This document shows, piece by piece, positions 1,521 to 19,035 of a DNA stretch of 32,203 bases. The notes beneath the pieces were generated by a model. That model saw only the letters and a program-made list of their open reading frames with translations, searched no databases and was not told where the DNA came from. Location: positions 1 to 32,203 of the forward strand of contig NZ_ADFR01000013.1 of the NCBI RefSeq assembly GCF_000177375.1, in the 5' to 3' direction. The DNA is from Bulleidia extructa W1219. Lineage in GTDB: Bacteria; Bacillota_I; Bacilli_A; Erysipelotrichales; Erysipelotrichaceae. The position numbers and the translations under genes were made by a program. Numbering within the stretch: the stretch's first letter is position 1; each line of letters opens with the position of its first letter.

Positions 1521-2462
1521 ATGCCCAATAAAAAAAATGTAACTATTCAGGAAATCATCAATTTTTTTCATTTTACTCAAGTGACAGGAGATGAAAAAGC
1601 GTTGCAAAATTTCACCAAAGATAATGATATTAATCGTCCGGGTTTTGAGTTAATGGGTAATTTCAGGGACTCGGTCCCCTCCCGGTTGGTGTTAATCGGA
1701 AATAAAGAAACTCGTTATATTAATAATATGCCTGAGGATATTCAAGAGAAGAGATTTCGTCAACTGTTGGAGTATTATAGTGCCGCTATTATTGTGACTC
1801 ACGATAATCCCGTCCCAAAGATTATGAAGAGATTAGCACAAGAGTTGAATTTCCCTATTTTAAGTACGCCTTTAGAGACTCAACAAGTGACAGCAGAGTT
1901 GATTTCGTTTTTGGATGAACAATTGGCAGAAGAAGATACTAAACATGGAGTCTTGGTTTCCGTAGACGGCGTTGGTGTTTTGATTATGGGAGCCAGCGGT
2001 ATGGGAAAATCGGAAACAGCACTAGAATTAATTCATCATGGACATATTTTGATTGCGGACGATCGAGTGGATATTTGCCATATTCATAATGATTTATATG
2101 GAAGAGCGCCAGAAATATTGAAGGGATTATTAGAAATTCGTGGTATTGGTATCATTGATGTTGAAAAAATGTTTGGTGTTTCAGCGATTCGTCATCGTTC
2201 AAAAATTGATTTGGTCATTGACTTAGTGCCTTTCGATAGCCAAGCGGAATATGATCGGATTGGCGGCGAAGATTTGGAACATATGGAAATATTGGGCGTT
2301 TCTGTTCCAAAACTAACATTACCGATTAGTGCCGGGAGAAGTTTGTCGGTATTAGTGGAAACCGCTGTTAGACATTATATGTTAGTGAAAACAGGGAATG
2401 CCGGTGCTAAAATTATTGAAAAAAGATTTATGGTATTAGCGGGTAAGGAGGAAGTATTATGA
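1521..2462 (+). CDS. hprK: HPr kinase/phosphorylase
   Basis: HprK phosphorylates HPr on Ser46 with ATP or pyrophosphate. It also removes the phosphate by phosphorolysis, releasing pyrophosphate, and so sets carbon catabolite repression in Gram-positive bacteria. The 313-aa length is normal for the family. Visible motifs are HGVLVSVDGVGVLI with the conserved His at 142, the P-loop GASGMGKS at 157-164, the adjacent acidic pair ADD at about 179-181, and the family signature LLEIRGIGIIDV at about 203-214. The start is supported by AGGAG five bases upstream. The last four bases (ATGA) overlap the next start, implying coupled translation with the Lgt/HAD fusion. In Bacillus, hprK is followed by separate lgt and ppaX genes; here both are replaced by one fused gene. 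Confidence 0.97.
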   Translation: MPNKKNVTIQEIINFFHFTQVTGDEKALQNFTKDNDINRPGFELMGNFRDSVPSRLVLIGNKETRYINNMPEDIQEKRFRQLLEYYSAAIIVTHDNPVPKIMKRLAQELNFPILSTPLETQQVTAELISFLDEQLAEEDTKHGVLVSVDGVGVLIMGASGMGKSETALELIHHGHILIADDRVDICHIHNDLYGRAPEILKGLLEIRGIGIIDVEKMFGVSAIRHRSKIDLVIDLVPFDSQAEYDRIGGEDLEHMEILGVSVPKLTLPISAGRSLSVLVETAVRHYMLVKTGNAGAKIIEKRFMVLAGKEEVL

Positions 2463-3805
2463 AATTTTTCCCTGATTCTATGACTTTGTTGAGCGTGGGG
2501 AGTTTTACGTTACCTTTTTATGCCGTTGGCGTTTTAGTCGGTGTTTCATTGGCGGTTTGGATTGCGTATCATGAAGCTATGAAGAAAGGAATTCGTATAG
2601 AATTCAATTTAGAAATTGTGGTGGTTGCTGTTTTAGGAGCCATCTTGGTTTCAAGATTTTTTTGGGTCATAGAAAATTTAGATGAATATTTAAAATACTT
2701 GCCCTATGTTTTTGCTTTGAATGATGGGGGATTTTCAATTGTCGGCGGCTTGTTTGGCGTGTCCATATTTACTGGCCTTTATGCGAAAGAAAGACGTCTA
2801 TCTTCTCTTCAAGTGTTGGATTTTATAGCACCTTTATATGCAGGAACAACGGTCATTATACGAATTGCTCGAGCCGTGGAAAGAAGTAGCGTTTGGTTTG
2901 CGATTTTCTTGGATATAGTGGGCATTTTTACAATCTGGTATTTATTCCGACCTTATCGTCATGGTTTTAAGCGAGGTCAATCTTTTGCGTTAACATTTAT
3001 TTGGCTTGGTTTAAGTACCTTGGCTTCAACGGTCTTTAAATGGGATCCAAATCTGAAATCTCAATTCTTGTTAGAAGTGATCACCGAGGGAATCGGTCTT
3101 GCTTTATTGTATTGGATCTATCAGCGTCGACCTGAACGACCGCTTCTGCTCTTTGATTTAGATGGAACCATCATGGATAGTCGAAGAATGGTGTTATATT
3201 GTTATGCGTATTTGTTTAAGAAATATAGTAGTTTAAAGAACTTTACAATGGAGAAACAAGAAGAGGTTTTTGGGGCTTCTTTGAAAGAAGAAATCGAACG
3301 CTTTTTCCCTAATCAAGATGCGAATGCTTTAGTGCAAGAATATCGGCAATATCAGCGTTCTTTCTCTTGGTCAAAAGAAGTATCGTTATTTCCGGAAACG
3401 CAAGAGACTTTGGAATATCTTTGGGAACAAGGATATACGATCGGTTTGGTGTCTTCTCGTTTGACAGAGAGTTGTGAATCGTGGTTGAAACAACTTCATT
3501 TGGATCATTGTTTTTCCGTGGTTGTTGGTCGTGATCAGGTTAAAAATCCAAAACCGTCTCCGGAAGGGATTTATTTTGCTTGTCAAAGATTGAAAGCCAG
3601 TCATTCTAATGCGGTATACATTGGTGATAATGTGACGGATATTCAAGCGGCTAAGAAAGCGGGTGTTTTTGCGATTGGGTTTAATACGGAACAAAGGAAA
3701 TTAGCTCAGTTAAAGAAAGAAAAACCGAATGTCATCATTCATCAATTAGATGAATTGAAAGAAGTTTTAAAGGCGGATCACGCTTGGACTTATGACAAAA
3801 TGTAA
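2459..3805 (+). CDS. Fusion of a degenerate Lgt-like membrane domain with a PpaX/Gph-like HAD phosphatase
   Basis: This 448-aa protein has two parts. Residues 1-222 form a multi-pass membrane domain with the layout of prolipoprotein diacylglyceryl transferase (Lgt). The NDGGFSIVGGLFG stretch at 88-100 matches the Lgt GGxSFHGG motif, but the catalytic His is Val95. The GRxGNFxNxE signature is reduced to IRIARAVERS at 134-143. Transferase activity is therefore doubtful. Residues 227-440 are a HAD phosphatase with intact motifs: DLDGT (nucleophile Asp233, Asp235), SS at 332-333, Lys365 in KNPKPSP, and GDNVTD at 389-394. In Bacillus, PpaX from the same operon hydrolyses the pyrophosphate made when HprK dephosphorylates HPr. 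By position and motifs this HAD part could do that job at the membrane. A phosphoglycolate phosphatase-like role is the main alternative. The start overlaps hprK by 4 bases. Confidence 0.85.
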   Translation: MKFFPDSMTLLSVGSFTLPFYAVGVLVGVSLAVWIAYHEAMKKGIRIEFNLEIVVVAVLGAILVSRFFWVIENLDEYLKYLPYVFALNDGGFSIVGGLFGVSIFTGLYAKERRLSSLQVLDFIAPLYAGTTVIIRIARAVERSSVWFAIFLDIVGIFTIWYLFRPYRHGFKRGQSFALTFIWLGLSTLASTVFKWDPNLKSQFLLEVITEGIGLALLYWIYQRRPERPLLLFDLDGTIMDSRRMVLYCYAYLFKKYSSLKNFTMEKQEEVFGASLKEEIERFFPNQDANALVQEYRQYQRSFSWSKEVSLFPETQETLEYLWEQGYTIGLVSSRLTESCESWLKQLHLDHCFSVVVGRDQVKNPKPSPEGIYFACQRLKASHSNAVYIGDNVTDIQAAKKAGVFAIGFNTEQRKLAQLKKEKPNVIIHQLDELKEVLKADHAWTYDKM

Positions 3806-3826
3806 AAGCCTGTTTGGGCTTTTTTT
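3804..3826 (+). terminator. Small terminator or attenuator between the fusion gene and rapZ
   Basis: AAAAGCC (3804-3810) pairs with GGCTTTT (3817-3823) around a six-base loop and continues into Ts to 3826. It overlaps the stop codon of the fusion gene. The stem has only three G-C pairs and rapZ starts 15 bases later, so partial read-through is likely. Confidence 0.6.
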
Positions 3827-3841
3827 GGAAAGGATGGGGCG

Positions 3842-4705
3842 ATGAAAAATAAATCAGTCATTTTGGTGAGTGGTATGAGTGGAGCCGGAAAGAGTTCTGT
3901 CACCCGTATTTTAGAAGATATGGGATATCACATTATTGATAATTATCCTGTTCAGTTGATGAGCTTTTTGGTGGATATGATTGAATCCAGCATTGATCCT
4001 CGCTATGAGCGGGTGGCTTTAAGCACGACAGCTCAAGATTTCCCAACTTTTTTGCGTTTATTTCGGGGATCGGATATTCGACTTCAGACGTTATTTTTAG
4101 ATGCTCAAGATTCGATTCTACTAAAACGATATAAAAGCACAAGACGCATTCATCCTTTGTTGTTATCAAATAGTGTGAACACATTAGAAGAAGCCATTTC
4201 TGTTGAAAGGCAAAGTTTTCAACAATATATGAGTCAGGATGTGATTGTGATTGATACTTCTTTTACAACGGAAAAGGAATTGCGAGCCAAACTGGAAAAG
4301 TATTTTTTAACTTCTAAGAAACAAGGCTTTTCGATTTCTTTTATTTCATTTGGTTATAAATATGGTTTGCCTATGGATGCTGATTTGGTCTTTGATGTTC
4401 GCTTCTTACCAAACCCTTTTTGGGAAGTTTCTTTACGTGGTTTTAGCGGTAACGATGAATCGGTCTATGCCTATGTGATGGAAAAAGAGGAAACGAAGGA
4501 GTTTTTGCGATATTTAACCACTTATTGTGACTACGTATTTGAAAAGTATCGAGAAGAAGGAAAGAATCATTTGACGGTTGGCATTGGTTGTACGGGTGGT
4601 CAGCATCGTTCAGTAACGATAACGAACTATCTATTTGATTTATACAAAAAGAAATACCATTGTTATAAAGAACACCGTGATGAGAAAGAGTGGTTTCATG
4701 AATAA
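3842..4705 (+). CDS. rapZ: RNase adapter / nucleotide-binding protein RapZ (YvcJ)
   Basis: The 287-aa protein has the Walker A motif GMSGAGKS at residues 11-18, followed by LEDMGYHIIDNYPV, the family's equivalent of LEDLGxxxVDNLP. The C-terminal half carries GYKYGLPMDADLVFDVRFLPNPFW, then LRGFSGND, and near the end GIGCTGGQHRSVTI, all hallmarks of RapZ/YvcJ. In E. coli RapZ delivers the small RNA GlmZ to RNase E. In Bacillus YvcJ binds and hydrolyses nucleotides and affects competence through YvcK-linked processes. The gene starts with ATG after AAGGATGGGG and overlaps the yvcK start by 8 bases, keeping the conserved rapZ-yvcK-whiA order. Confidence 0.95.
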   Translation: MKNKSVILVSGMSGAGKSSVTRILEDMGYHIIDNYPVQLMSFLVDMIESSIDPRYERVALSTTAQDFPTFLRLFRGSDIRLQTLFLDAQDSILLKRYKSTRRIHPLLLSNSVNTLEEAISVERQSFQQYMSQDVIVIDTSFTTEKELRAKLEKYFLTSKKQGFSISFISFGYKYGLPMDADLVFDVRFLPNPFWEVSLRGFSGNDESVYAYVMEKEETKEFLRYLTTYCDYVFEKYREEGKNHLTVGIGCTGGQHRSVTITNYLFDLYKKKYHCYKEHRDEKEWFHE

Positions 4706-8874: not shown

Positions 8875-10932
8875 ATGATTAATAAATTTCCAAATAAATT
8901 AAGAGATTTGCGTAAATCATTGGGTTATGCCCAAGGTGAAATGGCGAGTCGTTTAGACATATCTGTGAAAGATTATATGAATTGGGAAAACGGAAACAGT
9001 CTTCCTGCTTTTTCGCAGATTCAAAAAATGGCCATTCTTTTTAACATACCCGTAGAATTACTCATGGATAATCGAAAAGAGATTAGTCAGGATTTATTAG
9101 ATACATTAAGTAAGAGTGTCATCATTCCTAGTTTTGTACAGGCAAAGAAAGAGGCGTCACAAACAGCAACGATGGATCTGGCGTCTAAAGTTCAGTCTGT
9201 GGATGCTTTTGAGGAAACAAAGGTGATGTCTACCATTCAAGATAATCAACACAAAAAGGAAATCAAGGAAGAAGTTGAAAAACGGAAGAAGATTAGTCGC
9301 AAAGCCATTTGGATTGGAAGTGGAGTGACTGCTTCGGTGATCCTTTTGGTTGTGTTGATTAGTTTGTTTTTCAACCGCAAGAATACGTTAGCCATCAGTG
9401 ATATGAATCGGTTGGCATTGGGAAAACATTTTTCAATGTATATTGAAGATAATGGCAATGTCAAGATTCGTGGGAATTTGAGCCATAAGAATGCTTTTGA
9501 AAATTTGGTTCAAGTTAGTGCTTATGGCGATCATGCGGTTGGCTTGAAGAAAGATGGAACGGTCGTTAGTAATGAAAGCAATGATGATGTTTCTAAGATG
9601 AAATCAATTCAGATGATTGCGGCCGGTCATGATCATATCTTAGCTTTGAAGAAAGATGGAACGGTTGTTTGTTCGGGAAATGACAATGCGTGTGCGGTTT
9701 CTGATTGGAAGAATGTAAAGCGTGTCTATGCCGGTAAAAATGTTAGCTTTGGTGTACAAGGTGACGGGAAGGTCTTAGTGGCTGGTGATGGTTCTGAAGT
9801 GAAGGGGATGAGTGGTGTTCAAAGTATTCGTGCCAATGATCAAATGATTGTGATCGTTCGAACAGAAGGTCGTGTTCAAGTGATTGCCAAAGGCAAAAAA
9901 GAAGTTCCGAATGGAAGCCATTTATCCGGAGTGAAGGATGTTGCTTTGACTCAAGATGGCATTTTCGCTATTGATCAGAATCATAAGATTCAATGGTCTT
10001 TGGTCAATGAAGAAAAGACTTCTTTTGATAAGGTGACTTTGGCTCGCTGGCAAAACATCCGCTTCATAGCGGGACAGGGAGATACTTTGGTCGGCATTGA
10101 TCAAAACGGCAGAATGACAGGTATTGGTAATAATAGTTCCAATCAATACGAAAATACAGCTCCCTTGGCTGAACCACAAGCTAAAAAATTAGGGCAAGTG
10201 AAAAATATTAAATTTACTGAAACGACCGCTAATGTAAATATCACATGGGATGCGGTTGAAAATGCGGATCGCTATCATGTGACCATTGATACTGAGCCGG
10301 CTCTTGATTTGAAAGATATTGCAAGCAACAGCACGAGTGTCCCTACAACAAAGTTAGAGTCCGGGAAGACTTATAAAGTCACGATTACAGCTTTGTCAGA
10401 TAAGAAAGATCAATATGCTGAAAGTGATGTGACAACCATTAACTATACCTATAATCAAAAAGTCATTGATCTGGATTCGCCAAAAAATGTAACGAATCAA
10501 GTAACCAAAAATGGTTGGACATTCAAATGGGATAAGGTGGAACATGCGGATTATTATAAGATTGTTTATGATGGACGGGTGTTGGTTGATAAGCAATTAG
10601 AAACAACCTATCACATAGATAATGAAGGTATTCCGGAAAATTCAGAGCATACGATTGAGATTACAGCACATTCGAACCAACCGAAAGTATATCGGGATAG
10701 TGCACCAACAAAGGTTAGAGCGGTTTATACACTGAAAAAATACAACGTGACATTTGTGTTTACAAAGAACGGATCTGTCGTAGGGCGTAAATCTTATACC
10801 TTAGCGAGAGGATCGTATCCATTGGGTTCCATTATCCAAGATGGGGATATTCCGGGCGGATATCATTTGAGTAATCCGGGGCAAGAAGTGGATATTTCTA
10901 AATCGGGTGAGCAACATGTGGAGGTTAAGTAA
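8875..10932 (+). CDS. Transmembrane HTH protein with RCC1-like repeats and Fn3-like domains
   Basis: The 685-aa protein has a modular layout. Residues 5-62 form an XRE-type helix-turn-helix (LRDLRKSLGYAQGEMASRLDIS, then YMNWENGNSLP). Residues 63-143 are a charged linker, and 145-166 a membrane segment with positive residues on its N-terminal side. Residues 180-420 carry RCC1-like repeats, seen as AGHDHILALKKDGTVVCSGN, YGDHAVGLKKDGTVVSN and VYAGKNVSFGVQGDGKV. Residues 440-525 and 535-615 look like two fibronectin-III-type domains (ITWDAVENADRYHVTI; FKWDKVEHADYYKIVYDG). A small beta-rich domain closes the chain. The predicted topology is DNA-binding domain inside and repeats outside, as in RodZ or one-component membrane sensors. 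The start has GGAGG five bases upstream. Function and ligand unknown. The stop overlaps the next ATG by one base. Confidence 0.85.
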   Translation: MINKFPNKLRDLRKSLGYAQGEMASRLDISVKDYMNWENGNSLPAFSQIQKMAILFNIPVELLMDNRKEISQDLLDTLSKSVIIPSFVQAKKEASQTATMDLASKVQSVDAFEETKVMSTIQDNQHKKEIKEEVEKRKKISRKAIWIGSGVTASVILLVVLISLFFNRKNTLAISDMNRLALGKHFSMYIEDNGNVKIRGNLSHKNAFENLVQVSAYGDHAVGLKKDGTVVSNESNDDVSKMKSIQMIAAGHDHILALKKDGTVVCSGNDNACAVSDWKNVKRVYAGKNVSFGVQGDGKVLVAGDGSEVKGMSGVQSIRANDQMIVIVRTEGRVQVIAKGKKEVPNGSHLSGVKDVALTQDGIFAIDQNHKIQWSLVNEEKTSFDKVTLARWQNIRFIAGQGDTLVGIDQNGRMTGIGNNSSNQYENTAPLAEPQAKKLGQVKNIKFTETTANVNITWDAVENADRYHVTIDTEPALDLKDIASNSTSVPTTKLESGKTYKVTITALSDKKDQYAESDVTTINYTYNQKVIDLDSPKNVTNQVTKNGWTFKWDKVEHADYYKIVYDGRVLVDKQLETTYHIDNEGIPENSEHTIEITAHSNQPKVYRDSAPTKVRAVYTLKKYNVTFVFTKNGSVVGRKSYTLARGSYPLGSIIQDGDIPGGYHLSNPGQEVDISKSGEQHVEVK

Positions 10933-14445: not shown

Positions 14446-14733
14446 ATGTTTGGTAAAAATAGAATTTTTGGTAACAAAAAAGAATCTGCGAAATTAGCGA
14501 AGAAACAAGTTAGGAAGAAGGCTGTTGTAAAGGATCACTGGTTTACATTCAGTGGTATCCGTAAGGAAGCGGTTCGTGTTCGTTGGCCTAAGTGGAAAGC
14601 CACCAGCAATGAGCCGGGTATATTTAGAAACACAGAGGAAGTATTGCTGTTTACGATTTTCTTCTCATTGTTTTTTGTTCTATGTGATTTCTCGATTGCT
14701 TTCTTATTGAAGTTTGTTGGAATTGGAGGATAA
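14446..14733 (+). CDS. secE: Preprotein translocase subunit SecE
   Basis: SecE stabilises the SecYEG channel. The 95-aa product has a basic N-terminus, the conserved amphipathic stretch GIRKEAVRVRWPKWKAT, and one membrane segment at about residues 66-90. The frame is open upstream, but ATG 14446 is chosen because AGGAGG (14434-14439) is six bases before it; earlier starts would lie within rpmG. It lies between rpmG and nusG, the universal order. It is somewhat longer than the Bacillus protein because of the basic N-terminal extension. Confidence 0.93.
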   Translation: MFGKNRIFGNKKESAKLAKKQVRKKAVVKDHWFTFSGIRKEAVRVRWPKWKATSNEPGIFRNTEEVLLFTIFFSLFFVLCDFSIAFLLKFVGIGG

Positions 14734-14737
14734 GCAA

Positions 14738-15328
14738 ATGAGCGAAATGGATGAAAAGATAGTGAAAGCGACGGATGATGAAAATGAAGTGCGCTGGTAT
14801 GTAGTGAATACGTATGCCGGGCATGAAAATCGTGTTAAAGATAACCTTGAAAAACGGTTAGAAACGATGGGAATTCAAGAGTCGCTATTCCGTATTTTTG
14901 TGGCGGAAGAAGAAGAAATTGTGATTAAAAAGAACAATAAATCAGAAGTGAAGAAAGTGAATATGTTCCCGGGTTATATTTTTGTTCAAATGAAAATGAC
15001 CGATCAGGCTTGGTATGTGGTTCGTAATACACCGGGTGTCACTGGATTTATCGGTTCTTCCGGTGGTGGGGCGAAGCCTTTCCCTGTTTCGGAAGATGAG
15101 ATGGAATCTATTCTACGTCGAATGGGCCATGGAGATCAAAAGGTTGTGGTGGATTTCCAAGTTGGAGATAACGTGAAGATCTTGACCGGACCTTTTGCTA
15201 ATATGATTGGTCGTATTTCTGCTATGAATGATCAAACGCAGATTGCGACGGTCATGACTTTATTGTTTGGTCGTGAAACACCAAATGAAATTAGTTATGG
15301 TGATTTGCAAAAATTAGAAGAAGAATAG
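14738..15328 (+). CDS. nusG: Transcription elongation/termination factor NusG
   Basis: NusG binds RNA polymerase and influences pausing, termination and transcription-translation coupling. The 196-aa protein begins with an acidic tail, then the NGN domain (RWYVVNTYAGHENRVKDNLE, and MFPGYIFVQMKMTDQAWYVVRNTPGVTGFIG). It ends with a KOW domain (GDNVKILTGPFANMIGRISAMN). ATG 14738 is chosen because TTGGAGGA ends eight bases upstream and the secE stop is four bases before. The next gene is not rplK as in most Bacillota but a small membrane protein and an adhesin. Confidence 0.96.
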   Translation: MSEMDEKIVKATDDENEVRWYVVNTYAGHENRVKDNLEKRLETMGIQESLFRIFVAEEEEIVIKKNNKSEVKKVNMFPGYIFVQMKMTDQAWYVVRNTPGVTGFIGSSGGGAKPFPVSEDEMESILRRMGHGDQKVVVDFQVGDNVKILTGPFANMIGRISAMNDQTQIATVMTLLFGRETPNEISYGDLQKLEEE

Positions 15329-15834: not shown

Positions 15835-18800
15835 ATGAGAAAAATTCAAAAGATGGGGACTTTGTTATTGACTTTTGTCATGCTTTTAGGAATAGGAGCT
15901 TCAAATATAAGTGTTTTTGCGGAAACGATGGAAAAAACGGGTTTCGAAAACAAAACAGGAAGTACTTCCAATGAAGCTGAATTTTATGCTAAGGAAAAGA
16001 CGGATCAAGGGATAACCATAACGATTCGTGCTGATAAAGGCGTTTTCCCAAAAGGGACAACGGTTAAGGTAAAAGATGTAGCGAAGAAAAATATTCAAAC
16101 CATTATTTCAAACACTATGGGCGACGTCAAAGATGTAGCAGCGGTGGACATTACTTTTTACAATAAAGGAAAAGAGATTGAGCCAACAGGAAATGTAGAA
16201 GTCCGTTTTGTGTCTTCAAGAAAGATAGAGGGAGATAAGCACAAGGTTGTCCATATCAAAGATGATAAAAAAGTGGAAGAAATGGGTTTTTCCGATTCTA
16301 AAAATGCTTCATTTACAGCGACGAGTTTTTCTATTTATGCGATTGTCGGAACGGAAAAATCGAACGAACCGGTCAGAAAGTATGAATTTTATTCTAAGAA
16401 TAAATTAGTGGATACACAAATTCTGAAAAATGGAGAAAAATTAGTCGAACCGTCTATTCCTGATTCAAAAGGAAATGTTTTTTTGAATTGGATAAAGGAA
16501 GATGGCAGTAAATTTGATGCTTTTGGAACGGTGAATGATATCAGCAAGAAAGAAACGGTTAAGGTATACGCTAAATACAAAAAAGAAGTGGCTGTGACAT
16601 TTTATAATGCACACGGTGAAAAAATTGCCATAAAAGTAGGGGAAAAGGGAGAAAAGATTAGAACTGATGATATTTCTTTTGAATTATCGGTCGGGAAATA
16701 TATTCATGGTTGGTGTAAAACTCCTAATGGAACAGAATCTGTCGGTAAAGAAATCAGCTTAGGAGATCAAGATGTGTCCTTATATCCGTTGATTAATGGT
16801 GGGAAATGGCTCTTTTTCAATGGAAATGAGGGTGATGGGAATTCTGTGAATGAACCATTAGAACCTCAATTTGTCAGAGAAGGTCATCACCCTAAATCTT
16901 TTATTCCGGAAAGACGAGGCTATGAATTTTCCGGATGGTATGAAGATAAGGAATGCACAAAGGCATTTGATTTTAATAAAAATATCACTGAGAATAAGGA
17001 AGTTTTTGCGAAGTGGATTGCGAAAGAATCCAGTTATACGATAAAAATTTGGCAGCAAAAATGTGTGGATGGAAAATTTATTGAAGATCATTATGTGATG
17101 AGGGATGTGAAGATTGTGAAGGCTATGTCGGATAGTTCGATCACAAAGGATAACGCAGAGACAGAAGCTAGAAACTACGTTGCGGAATTGATGAGAAAAG
17201 GTAATAGAGACAGTTACAATGATTATTATCATTTTGATTTCAACTCTGACAAAACAAGTATTGAAAACAATAAGGTAAGAGGAGATGGCAGCTCTGTTGT
17301 CAATATCTATTATGATTTACATTCATATACGATTAAATTTCATAAGAAAAATACAGCATGGCCTGAAACGGCTTTAGATGAAAGTAAATTTACGGCACAA
17401 ATGATTGTTGATGGAAAACCGTATGATAAGGATTTTTACTTGGTTGAAAATTACCATGTTGGTGAGAAGATAGAAAATAAAAGACCGGATGTTAAAGCAA
17501 TTGCCAAGGAAGGTGTCAGTGATAAAGCTATACGGACAGGTTGGGTGAATAGAAATGAAGGCGGAGGAATTGTTAACTTTATAACCTATAATGATAATAG
17601 CCTTTCCTATGTCAAGCCAAATTTATTAGTTAGAGAAAATGTTCCGGGGTTTGAAACTATAAATTTTTATCCGGTATTCCCTAAAAAATTAGTAAAAGTG
17701 ACCGTATTTGATTATGTGGAAACCATGGAAAAAGGGATCTATGAGGAAAATAAGAAAGAATTGCCGGGCAGTCCATCCATTTCATTTAGTGCCAGTAGGA
17801 TGATAGGCTTTACGAGAGTTCCTTTAGATGAAGCGTTTTCTAAGAAAATAAAGGTTAAAAGAACTGACGGGCATATAGAAGAGATAACTCTTCCTGATAA
17901 GAAAACCCAGAAAGCTAACTATACTTTCTATAACATTCATAATAGAAATACTTATGAGTTAACGTTTTTCAACAAAAGTGTTGTTGAAAAATCCTATAGA
18001 GGCGATCATGCCATTCCGTATAACGCTACTATTGAGGATAAGATCTATACGCCTAAAAAGCCGCTCGACTTAAGTGATTTTTATACGTTTAAAGGTTGGG
18101 CTAACAGAAAAGGTGAAATTTACGATTTGGAAAAGATTAAGAAAATGCCTAGTAGTAATCTATTTCTTTATGCTCAATGGGAAATCAAAAAGGTGAATGT
18201 TCGTTTTGATAGCAATGGGGGAACGGCAGTGGCTTCTCAAACTATCAATGCGCTGGAAAAGGTTAAAAAACCTCAAAATCCTATCAGAGCCGGCTTTCAA
18301 TTTGCGGGTTGGGCATTGCCAAATGGATCTCCGTTCAATTTTTCAAAAGGGGTTACCACAGATATGCAGTTAATCGCAAGATGGGTAGATAAAAAATCCA
18401 TTGTTGTGAAATACAATGCGAAAGAGGGAGGTCAAGCTCCTATTGATCATAGTAGATATGTAGATGTTTCCAATGTCAAGGTATTAGGAGCTCCGAAAGT
18501 TTTACCAAGAAATAAATTTTTTAAAGGTTGGGAGCTTGATGGAGTGGTGTATTATCCTGGACAATTCTGTTTGTTGAAATCAAAGTTAGCTACAAGGCTA
18601 GCTGATGGGAAGTACGAAATCACTTTAAATGCAGTGTATACTGATGCAACAGAAAAGACCAAGCTCATATATCATGCGAACTTTGGAAGCAATAGGACAG
18701 TGGAAAAAGAATATATCAATAATAGCGATATTCGAGTTTGGAGTGCTCAAAAACTGGGCTTTAACAGAGAGGGATATGAATTCATGGGGTGGAATACCCG

Positions 18801-19035
18801 AAAAGACGGCAGTGGAATCTCTTACGGAATTCGTGATGAAATTAGAGTGGATAATAATCGACCACTTCCTAATGAATTATTTGCTCAATGGAAGAAAAAG
18901 CAGATTTCAAACAGGAGAAATTCACTTCCAAAAACAGCGGATGGTCATCATTTGTCTTTATATGTTTGGACGATGTTGGTTTCAGCAATAGCGATGGTCC
19001 TTATTGGATATGGCCGTAAAGAATATGGGCAGTGA
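15835..19035 (+). CDS. LPXTG-anchored surface protein with InlB-type (Flg_new) repeats
   Basis: This 1066-aa protein starts with a signal peptide (basic MRKIQKMG, hydrophobic core, cut near VFAETM, about residue 29-30). Residues 35-175 form a beta-rich domain (ADKGVFPKGTTVKVKDV up to SFSIYAIVG) of a kind common in Gram-positive surface proteins. The middle holds many InlB B-repeat-like units, recognised by phrases such as REGHHPKSFIPERRGYEFSG, GFQFAGWALPNGSPF and GYEFMGWNTRKDGSG, each ending near an FAKW- or FAQW-type motif. LPKTA at 1031-1035, a hydrophobic stretch and an RKEYGQ tail form the sortase signal. The start has AGGAGAG before ATG. It probably acts in adhesion. Its place between nusG and rplK is unusual. 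Confidence 0.92.
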   Translation: MRKIQKMGTLLLTFVMLLGIGASNISVFAETMEKTGFENKTGSTSNEAEFYAKEKTDQGITITIRADKGVFPKGTTVKVKDVAKKNIQTIISNTMGDVKDVAAVDITFYNKGKEIEPTGNVEVRFVSSRKIEGDKHKVVHIKDDKKVEEMGFSDSKNASFTATSFSIYAIVGTEKSNEPVRKYEFYSKNKLVDTQILKNGEKLVEPSIPDSKGNVFLNWIKEDGSKFDAFGTVNDISKKETVKVYAKYKKEVAVTFYNAHGEKIAIKVGEKGEKIRTDDISFELSVGKYIHGWCKTPNGTESVGKEISLGDQDVSLYPLINGGKWLFFNGNEGDGNSVNEPLEPQFVREGHHPKSFIPERRGYEFSGWYEDKECTKAFDFNKNITENKEVFAKWIAKESSYTIKIWQQKCVDGKFIEDHYVMRDVKIVKAMSDSSITKDNAETEARNYVAELMRKGNRDSYNDYYHFDFNSDKTSIENNKVRGDGSSVVNIYYDLHSYTIKFHKKNTAWPETALDESKFTAQMIVDGKPYDKDFYLVENYHVGEKIENKRPDVKAIAKEGVSDKAIRTGWVNRNEGGGIVNFITYNDNSLSYVKPNLLVRENVPGFETINFYPVFPKKLVKVTVFDYVETMEKGIYEENKKELPGSPSISFSASRMIGFTRVPLDEAFSKKIKVKRTDGHIEEITLPDKKTQKANYTFYNIHNRNTYELTFFNKSVVEKSYRGDHAIPYNATIEDKIYTPKKPLDLSDFYTFKGWANRKGEIYDLEKIKKMPSSNLFLYAQWEIKKVNVRFDSNGGTAVASQTINALEKVKKPQNPIRAGFQFAGWALPNGSPFNFSKGVTTDMQLIARWVDKKSIVVKYNAKEGGQAPIDHSRYVDVSNVKVLGAPKVLPRNKFFKGWELDGVVYYPGQFCLLKSKLATRLADGKYEITLNAVYTDATEKTKLIYHANFGSNRTVEKEYINNSDIRVWSAQKLGFNREGYEFMGWNTRKDGSGISYGIRDEIRVDNNRPLPNELFAQWKKKQISNRRNSLPKTADGHHLSLYVWTMLVSAIAMVLIGYGRKEYGQ

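Follow-up and report, generated by a model that had tools for sequence, protein, structure and literature searches.

In Bacillales and Lactobacillales the ptsK-lgt neighbourhood is reported to be constant, and an older survey found HprK only as single polypeptides, with tandem HprK as the exception (PMC2405797). HprK/P dephosphorylates P-Ser-HPr with phosphate and thereby releases pyrophosphate (PPi) (PMC2937029). As related there from Mijakovic 2002, YvoE (PpaX), the pyrophosphatase of the B. subtilis hprK operon, has been proposed to favour this dephosphorylation, and two-hybrid tests have shown an interaction between HprK/P and a pyrophosphatase of Brucella (PMC2937029). Lgt contacts phosphatidylglycerol (PG) through Y26, arm-2 and R143 (PMC4728403; Lgt positions in E. 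coli numbering), and mutagenesis has established that N146, G154 and R239 are essential and that further residues, G142 and Y235 among them, are important (PMC13251419, PMC4728403). The position of H103 is occupied by Y or W in the Lgts of Firmicutes and Actinobacteria, and some natural Lgts have N146C, among them that of L. interrogans, which partly rescues E. coli (PMC13251419). We found no Lgt-HAD fusion and no Lgt pseudoenzyme in the open-access literature.

We analysed a 32,203-nucleotide stretch of Bulleidia extructa W1219 (NZ_ADFR01000013.1, positions 1 to 32,203; hereafter the window), which belongs to a 1.42-Mb genome in 16 contigs and carries, next to hprK, a gene that combines an Lgt-like domain with a PpaX-like HAD domain.

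Results

The open frame that follows hprK

The frame at 2459–3805 is a single one of 448 aa with an ATG start, and its start overlaps hprK by 4 bp (ATG at 2459, hprK stop at 2462), as the initial annotation had stated. Pfam recognizes LGT at residues 10–221 (59.9 bits, gathering score 24.9) and HAD_2 at residues 230–407 (156 bits). In an AlphaFold2 model built from 26 sequences (pLDDT 86, pTM 0.81), seven membrane helices are followed by a HAD domain; arm-1 and arm-2 are present, and a loop (residues 140–144, between TM4 and TM5) is found where the periplasmic head is expected. Foldseek paired the membrane half with the Lgt of E. coli (5azb, E 3e-8) and the remainder with many HAD phosphatases, whereas the structure matches from VIA-align were HAD chains only and hence have no bearing on the membrane half. 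The same protein lies 3′ of hprK in about 29 related genomes, where it is under purifying selection. We rejected a sequencing or pseudogene artefact because the frame is intact in these genomes with low dN/dS. The terminator scan that picked up a hairpin behind the stop codon (Table 1) gave 6 hits in the region against 3.2 expected by chance.

Two other genes of the window have unusual products. One (8875–10932) encodes a 685-aa protein with an unusual mix of an N-terminal HTH, RCC1 repeats and fn3; the other (15835–19035) encodes a 1066-aa Listeria-Bacteroides repeat protein and lies between a NusG gene (14714–15328) and ribosomal protein genes.

Table 1. Features of the hprK locus in the window and, in the last row, single-chain HprK-HAD proteins of related genomes.
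Feature	Position	Strand	Basis
hprK, HPr(Ser) kinase/phosphorylase, 313 aa	1521..2462	+	TIGR00679 345 bits, cut-off 240
Degenerate Lgt membrane domain, residues 1–226, seven predicted TM helices, 5-residue loop in place of head	2459..3136	+	Pfam LGT; AlphaFold2 and 5azb match; residue table
Arm-2 segment R66–G91 (E. coli 73–99), best-conserved part of the pseudo-Lgt	2654..2731	+	Segment conservation
Val95, position of E. coli His103	2741..2743	+	Residue table
R135 (E. coli R143, kept) to R138 (E. coli N146, now R)	2861..2872	+	Residue table
T187, position of essential E. coli R239	3017..3019	+	Residue table
PpaX-like HAD phosphatase domain, residues 227–448, and stop codon	3137..3805	+	D233xD235GT, S332/S333, K365, GD390xxxD394
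Short hairpin immediately 3′ of the ORF stop	3804..3823	.	Terminator scan, - strand only, weak
rapZ, next gene, first of the rapZ-yvcK-whiA cluster	3842..4705	+	NF003828 298.7 bits
HprK-HAD (PpaX-like) fusions	L063:1266-2879; L064:2073-3686; L065:2004-3623	- (L063)	Motifs of both enzymes

Active-site residues missing from the fused Lgt half

The fused Lgt half has the seven-helix fold of Lgt and misses the NCBIfam equivalog cut-off (TIGR00544, 54.8 versus 118.9 bits). In the window protein H103 is replaced by V, R239 by T, Y235 by L and E243 by T, and the GRxGNFIN signature is lost (G142I, N146R, with E151 and G154 deleted). At the essential positions N146 (or C), G154, R239, Y235 and H/Y/W103 it thus has R, a deletion, T, L and V. 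The degeneracy of the membrane domain, the loss of its signature and the Val at the histidine position, all noted in the initial annotation, were borne out by the residue table. Among the four residues whose loss it had proposed to test, His103 and Arg239 are indeed gone, but Tyr26 (Y21) and Arg143 (R135), both essential in Lgt, are retained.

We then compared 28 sequences from the window's genus with 27 intact fusions. In the former R73 (100%), G98 (93%), G99 (96%), G104 (86%), D129 (100%) and R143 (96%) are kept, and Y26 and R239 are partly kept (75% each). H/Q/Y103, G142, N149, E202, Y235 and E243 are lost, E151, G154 and the periplasmic head domain are deleted, and 25 of the 28 have R or K at position 146. 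Position 103 is Q, H or Y in the intact fusions and Y or W in Firmicutes and Actinobacteria (PMC13251419), so the absence of His103, on which the initial annotation had relied, is no proof of inactivity. It is the loss of residues that published mutagenesis shows to be essential (N146, G154 and, in the window protein, R239) or important (G142, Y235 and others) that makes catalysis by the fused Lgt half very unlikely. The fused half may still bind phospholipid, with which the residues that it keeps are compatible.

Constraint on the degenerate half

Pairwise dN/dS of the degenerate Lgt half (Nei-Gojobori; less sure where dS > 1, near saturation) was 0.05–0.08 in the closest pairs and 0.05–0.15 in close pairs overall. 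A comparison of the window with its closest relative gave 0.12 for the Lgt half, 0.03 for the HAD, 0.06 for hprK and 0.08 for the separate lgt described below. The Lgt half of intact fusions is, in most cases, conserved as well as the HAD half or better, whereas this relation is reversed in the degenerate ones. The Lgt half is nevertheless not decaying freely: it is under purifying selection, its seven helices remain, and the idea of a maintained membrane domain stands.

Where the constraint lies has changed. Mean pairwise identity of arm-2 is 0.53 in the window's genus, or 0.60 when the Lactimicrobium group is left out, compared with 0.45 for intact fusions, and the cytoplasmic loops L3-4 (0.52 versus 0.39) and L5-6 (0.52 versus 0.43) follow the same trend; catalytic TM4 (0.43 versus 0.70) and L6-7 (0.34 versus 0.80) show the opposite. 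In this genus arm-2 and the cytoplasmic loops have gained constraint and the catalytic helix has lost it. The conservation of the loops may partly reflect the positive-inside rule, which does not account for the arm-2 signal.

A separate Cys-type lgt

The initial annotation had suggested a search for a second lgt, and one is present on another contig of the window genome (G000:C15:113070-113840, 257 aa); it is of a Cys type. All but a few incomplete genomes of the genus have such a gene (about 250–285 aa), with the signature GRIGCFLAGCCYG (N146C, N149A, E151C and mostly S202). It scores 283 bits against NCBIfam lgt NF000778 (cut-off 334). A recent duplication of the fused Lgt as the source of the solo gene is not supported, given about 29% identity to an intact fused Lgt and a different Cys signature. 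LspA was found in 34 of 34 good-quality genomes of the genus, so lipoprotein processing continues, and we infer that the Cys-type gene is the working Lgt, although N146C, E151C and S202 set it apart from canonical Lgt. In most of the genus it is the sole full-scoring Lgt (GRxGC...AGCCYG; L001:1468-2241 on the - strand and related loci L033-L062), and its role as a transferase is predicted.

Across 87 tree rows, the genome also encodes a Cys-type lgt in all 59 cases of a non-intact Lgt half and lacks one in 27 of the 28 cases of an intact half. This association rests on only 3–4 independent contrasts, too few for significance (p 0.25). Two genomes (G058, G029) combine an intact fusion with a second Lgt that matches the solo type, the state expected of an intermediate. 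A few genomes encode extra, divergent stand-alone LGT-family proteins of 213–284 aa (L068:2421-3122 and L070:2235-3089, both on the - strand, and L069:2247-2888) beside LytR-CpsA-Psr, VWA/lipase or Listeria-Bacteroides repeat proteins. Two family genomes that are 98–99% complete (G016, G056) had no LGT or HprK match, perhaps through real loss or an assembly gap.

Intact fusions in the family

Nearly all of 245 Erysipelotrichaceae genomes match the fused protein or its HAD half. In a scan of genome contigs, an alignment query gave matches and a single-protein query none. In the family's other genera, one frame of about 490 aa typically carries the LGT match, with a strong score (~200–250 bits), a GRWGNFINQE-type signature and all essential residues. 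This intact active site is not found in the window protein. The usual gene order is hprK - lgtHAD - trxB, and the intact fusion is usually the sole lgt in the sampled genomes. hprK, lgt and the HAD are three separate genes in Paenibacillus, in Sporosarcina and in several further families of Bacilli. Because Lgt-HAD frames also occur in other Bacilli families (f14, some f3), the fusion may have arisen more than once.

In a tree of HprK plus HAD (104 rows, quick method) the window's genus groups as a single clade with support 100 that lies within the intact fusions, and the HAD of the window is orthologous to that of the family fusion at the same locus. Since most of the family carries the fusion with an intact and usually sole Lgt, the fusion is older than the decay and ancestral in the family, and a bifunctional enzyme probably lost one activity in genomes with a Cys-type lgt. 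The earlier proposal that Lgt was recruited as a dead anchor has the order reversed.

A graded series of architectures behind hprK

Within the window's genus, hprK is followed by the degenerate fusion in about 29 genomes and by a HAD-only ORF at 22 loci, many of which share the 4-bp overlap. The named relatives that carry the degenerate form are Solobacterium-labelled MAGs and Lactimicrobium massiliense. In three MAGs (G257, G263, G260) a single HprK-HAD chain of 537–539 aa has the HprK P-loop, the HprK family score and the HAD motifs. On the HprK+HAD tree the HAD-only state requires 6 changes, of which starred branches force 5, and the HprK-HAD state a single change. Outside the genus, one genome (G053) also combines a degenerate fusion with a Cys-type lgt. 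Two members of genus g4 (G003, G137; L158:1417-2646, L167:1613-2842) have a 409-aa protein between hprK and trxB in which a bare stub of seven helices, about 186 aa long, is joined to the HAD; Lgt similarity was not detected in this stub, which is kept independently of the window's genus. Other members of g4, and g5, have the HAD alone, and in genus g56 trxB directly follows hprK. Decay has run in reverse in genus g37 (L157:1875-2963, L176:1433-2521), where an intact Lgt is joined to a shortened HAD without the DxD motif. The HAD beside hprK is kept through nearly every rearrangement, whereas trxB and the Lgt half have been gained and lost. The initial annotation had a membrane anchor place a pyrophosphatase beside HprK. 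Selection on the membrane half in the window's genus agrees with an anchor, but membrane attachment is not generally required, since HAD-only and HprK-HAD forms exist in relatives.

The HAD domain

All four catalytic motifs are intact, as had been noted, and D233, D235, G236, T237, K365, G389, D390 and D394 are invariant among relatives. The best curated NCBIfam match is PpaX (NF009804) at 137 bits, followed by phosphoglycolate phosphatase; this upholds a PpaX-like assignment, but the PpaX cut-off of 218 is missed and the substrate could therefore differ from PPi. The HAD is probably not the only pyrophosphatase, because all 40 genomes examined from the window's genus encode a DHHA2-domain pyrophosphatase-type protein. 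hprK adjoins the HAD in all architectures that carry it. This constant linkage, the fusion to HprK and the similarity to PpaX make an HprK-linked pyrophosphatase the most likely identity.

Discussion

We consider it probable that the 448-aa protein is a former bifunctional enzyme whose dead Lgt half has become a membrane-holding pseudoenzyme and whose HAD is a pyrophosphatase serving HprK/P. An hprK-lgt-ppaX gene order would have given rise to the bifunctional fusion now standard in Erysipelotrichaceae. A separate Cys-type Lgt presumably took over diacylglyceryl transfer to lipoproteins in the window's genus; the fused half lost its catalytic residues and its head domain for the protein substrate and persisted, as a seven-helix domain that its residues suggest is dead, under purifying selection. 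Judging from topology, this domain, encoded in overlap with hprK, would hold the cytoplasmic HAD at the membrane. The HAD most likely hydrolyses the PPi from P-Ser-HPr dephosphorylation, which would pull that reaction forward.

The membrane half might instead be a passive relic that only keeps the HAD folded and cytoplasmic and is hard to delete without harming translational coupling to hprK. Its seven helices were kept while catalytic and periplasmic parts went, genus g4 retains only bare helices, and the membrane half was wholly lost several times. A plain tether, however, would need neither an arm-2, periplasmic or interfacial, that is better conserved than in the enzyme nor the nearly invariant polar residues R73, D97, D129, R143 and R/K146, and we regard this explanation as somewhat unlikely. 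A further alternative, which takes up the lipid-sensing idea of the initial annotation, is a sensor of lipid or lipoprotein state, in which the pseudo-Lgt binds PG through its front cleft or arm-2 and R143 and controls the HAD, linking the envelope to HPr-Ser-P turnover: residues of the PG site (Y26, G98/G99, R143) are retained and those of transfer lost, a basic residue has been added at 146, and arm-2 and the loops L3-4 and L5-6 that face the HAD are conserved. The loops may, however, reflect only the positive-inside rule, and the HAD-only and HprK-HAD relatives do without a membrane half; a sensor is in our estimate unlikely. In a more elaborate version, which we think quite unlikely, the pseudo-Lgt would be a membrane receptor for PG or a lipoprotein signal (arm-2, R143/R146) that gates a pyrophosphatase setting the direction of HprK/P. 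Envelope state would then feed into carbon catabolite control, and the HprK-PpaX fusions would amount to physical channelling of PPi between the two enzymes.

That the fused half is still an enzyme, with residual Lgt activity or as a changed lipid transferase, and that the solo gene does something else, is highly improbable. R143 and strong purifying selection fit such an enzyme, and some distant Lgts lack canonical residues (PMC13251419), but H/Q/Y103, N146, E151, G154, E202, Y235, E243 and the head are gone, relatives without the fused half retain LspA and the Cys-type Lgt, and the solo gene scores near the NCBIfam lgt model. The HAD, for its part, could be a phosphatase for phosphoglycolate or another metabolite, unrelated to HprK chemistry and placed beside hprK by inherited gene order. 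The missed PpaX cut-off, the phosphoglycolate phosphatase models that score next best and the separate pyrophosphatase-type protein speak for this; we hold it to be doubtful, since the HAD has stayed beside hprK in almost all rearrangements and forms a single chain with HprK in three genomes. We favour a pyrophosphatase partner of HprK/P held at the membrane by a pseudoenzyme.

The natural series from separate genes through double enzyme, dead half, bare helices and HAD alone to HprK-HAD shows which partner the HAD needs. With the HprK-HAD single chain, the old proposal of a PpaX-HprK/P partnership on pyrophosphate becomes directly testable, and an Lgt pseudoenzyme with altered constraint may help to tell lipid binding and catalysis apart in an enzyme proposed as an antibiotic target.

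Compared with E. coli Lgt (5AZB/5AZC), the window protein shares the seven-helix fold, Tyr26, Arg143 and G98/G99 but lacks the head, His103, Asn146, Glu151, Gly154, Tyr235, Arg239 and Glu243. Its HAD resembles PpaX (NF009804) as its best curated match, in all catalytic motifs and in hprK linkage, and differs in being membrane-attached and below the curated cut-off, with activity on PPi only predicted. The Bacillus hprK-lgt-ppaX (yvoE) order has the same three functions in the same order, hprK linkage and a PpaX-type HAD; there, however, they reside in three proteins with a working Lgt, whereas the window has one protein in which the Lgt half is probably dead. The Lgt-HAD fusions of Holdemania filiformis, Anaerorhabdus furcosa and Erysipelothrix urinaevulpis (L191, L189, L206) have the same domain order, the same place after hprK and an orthologous HAD, but their Lgt is intact (typically GRWGNFINQE) and usually the sole one, they are 484–490 aa long, and trxB comes next.
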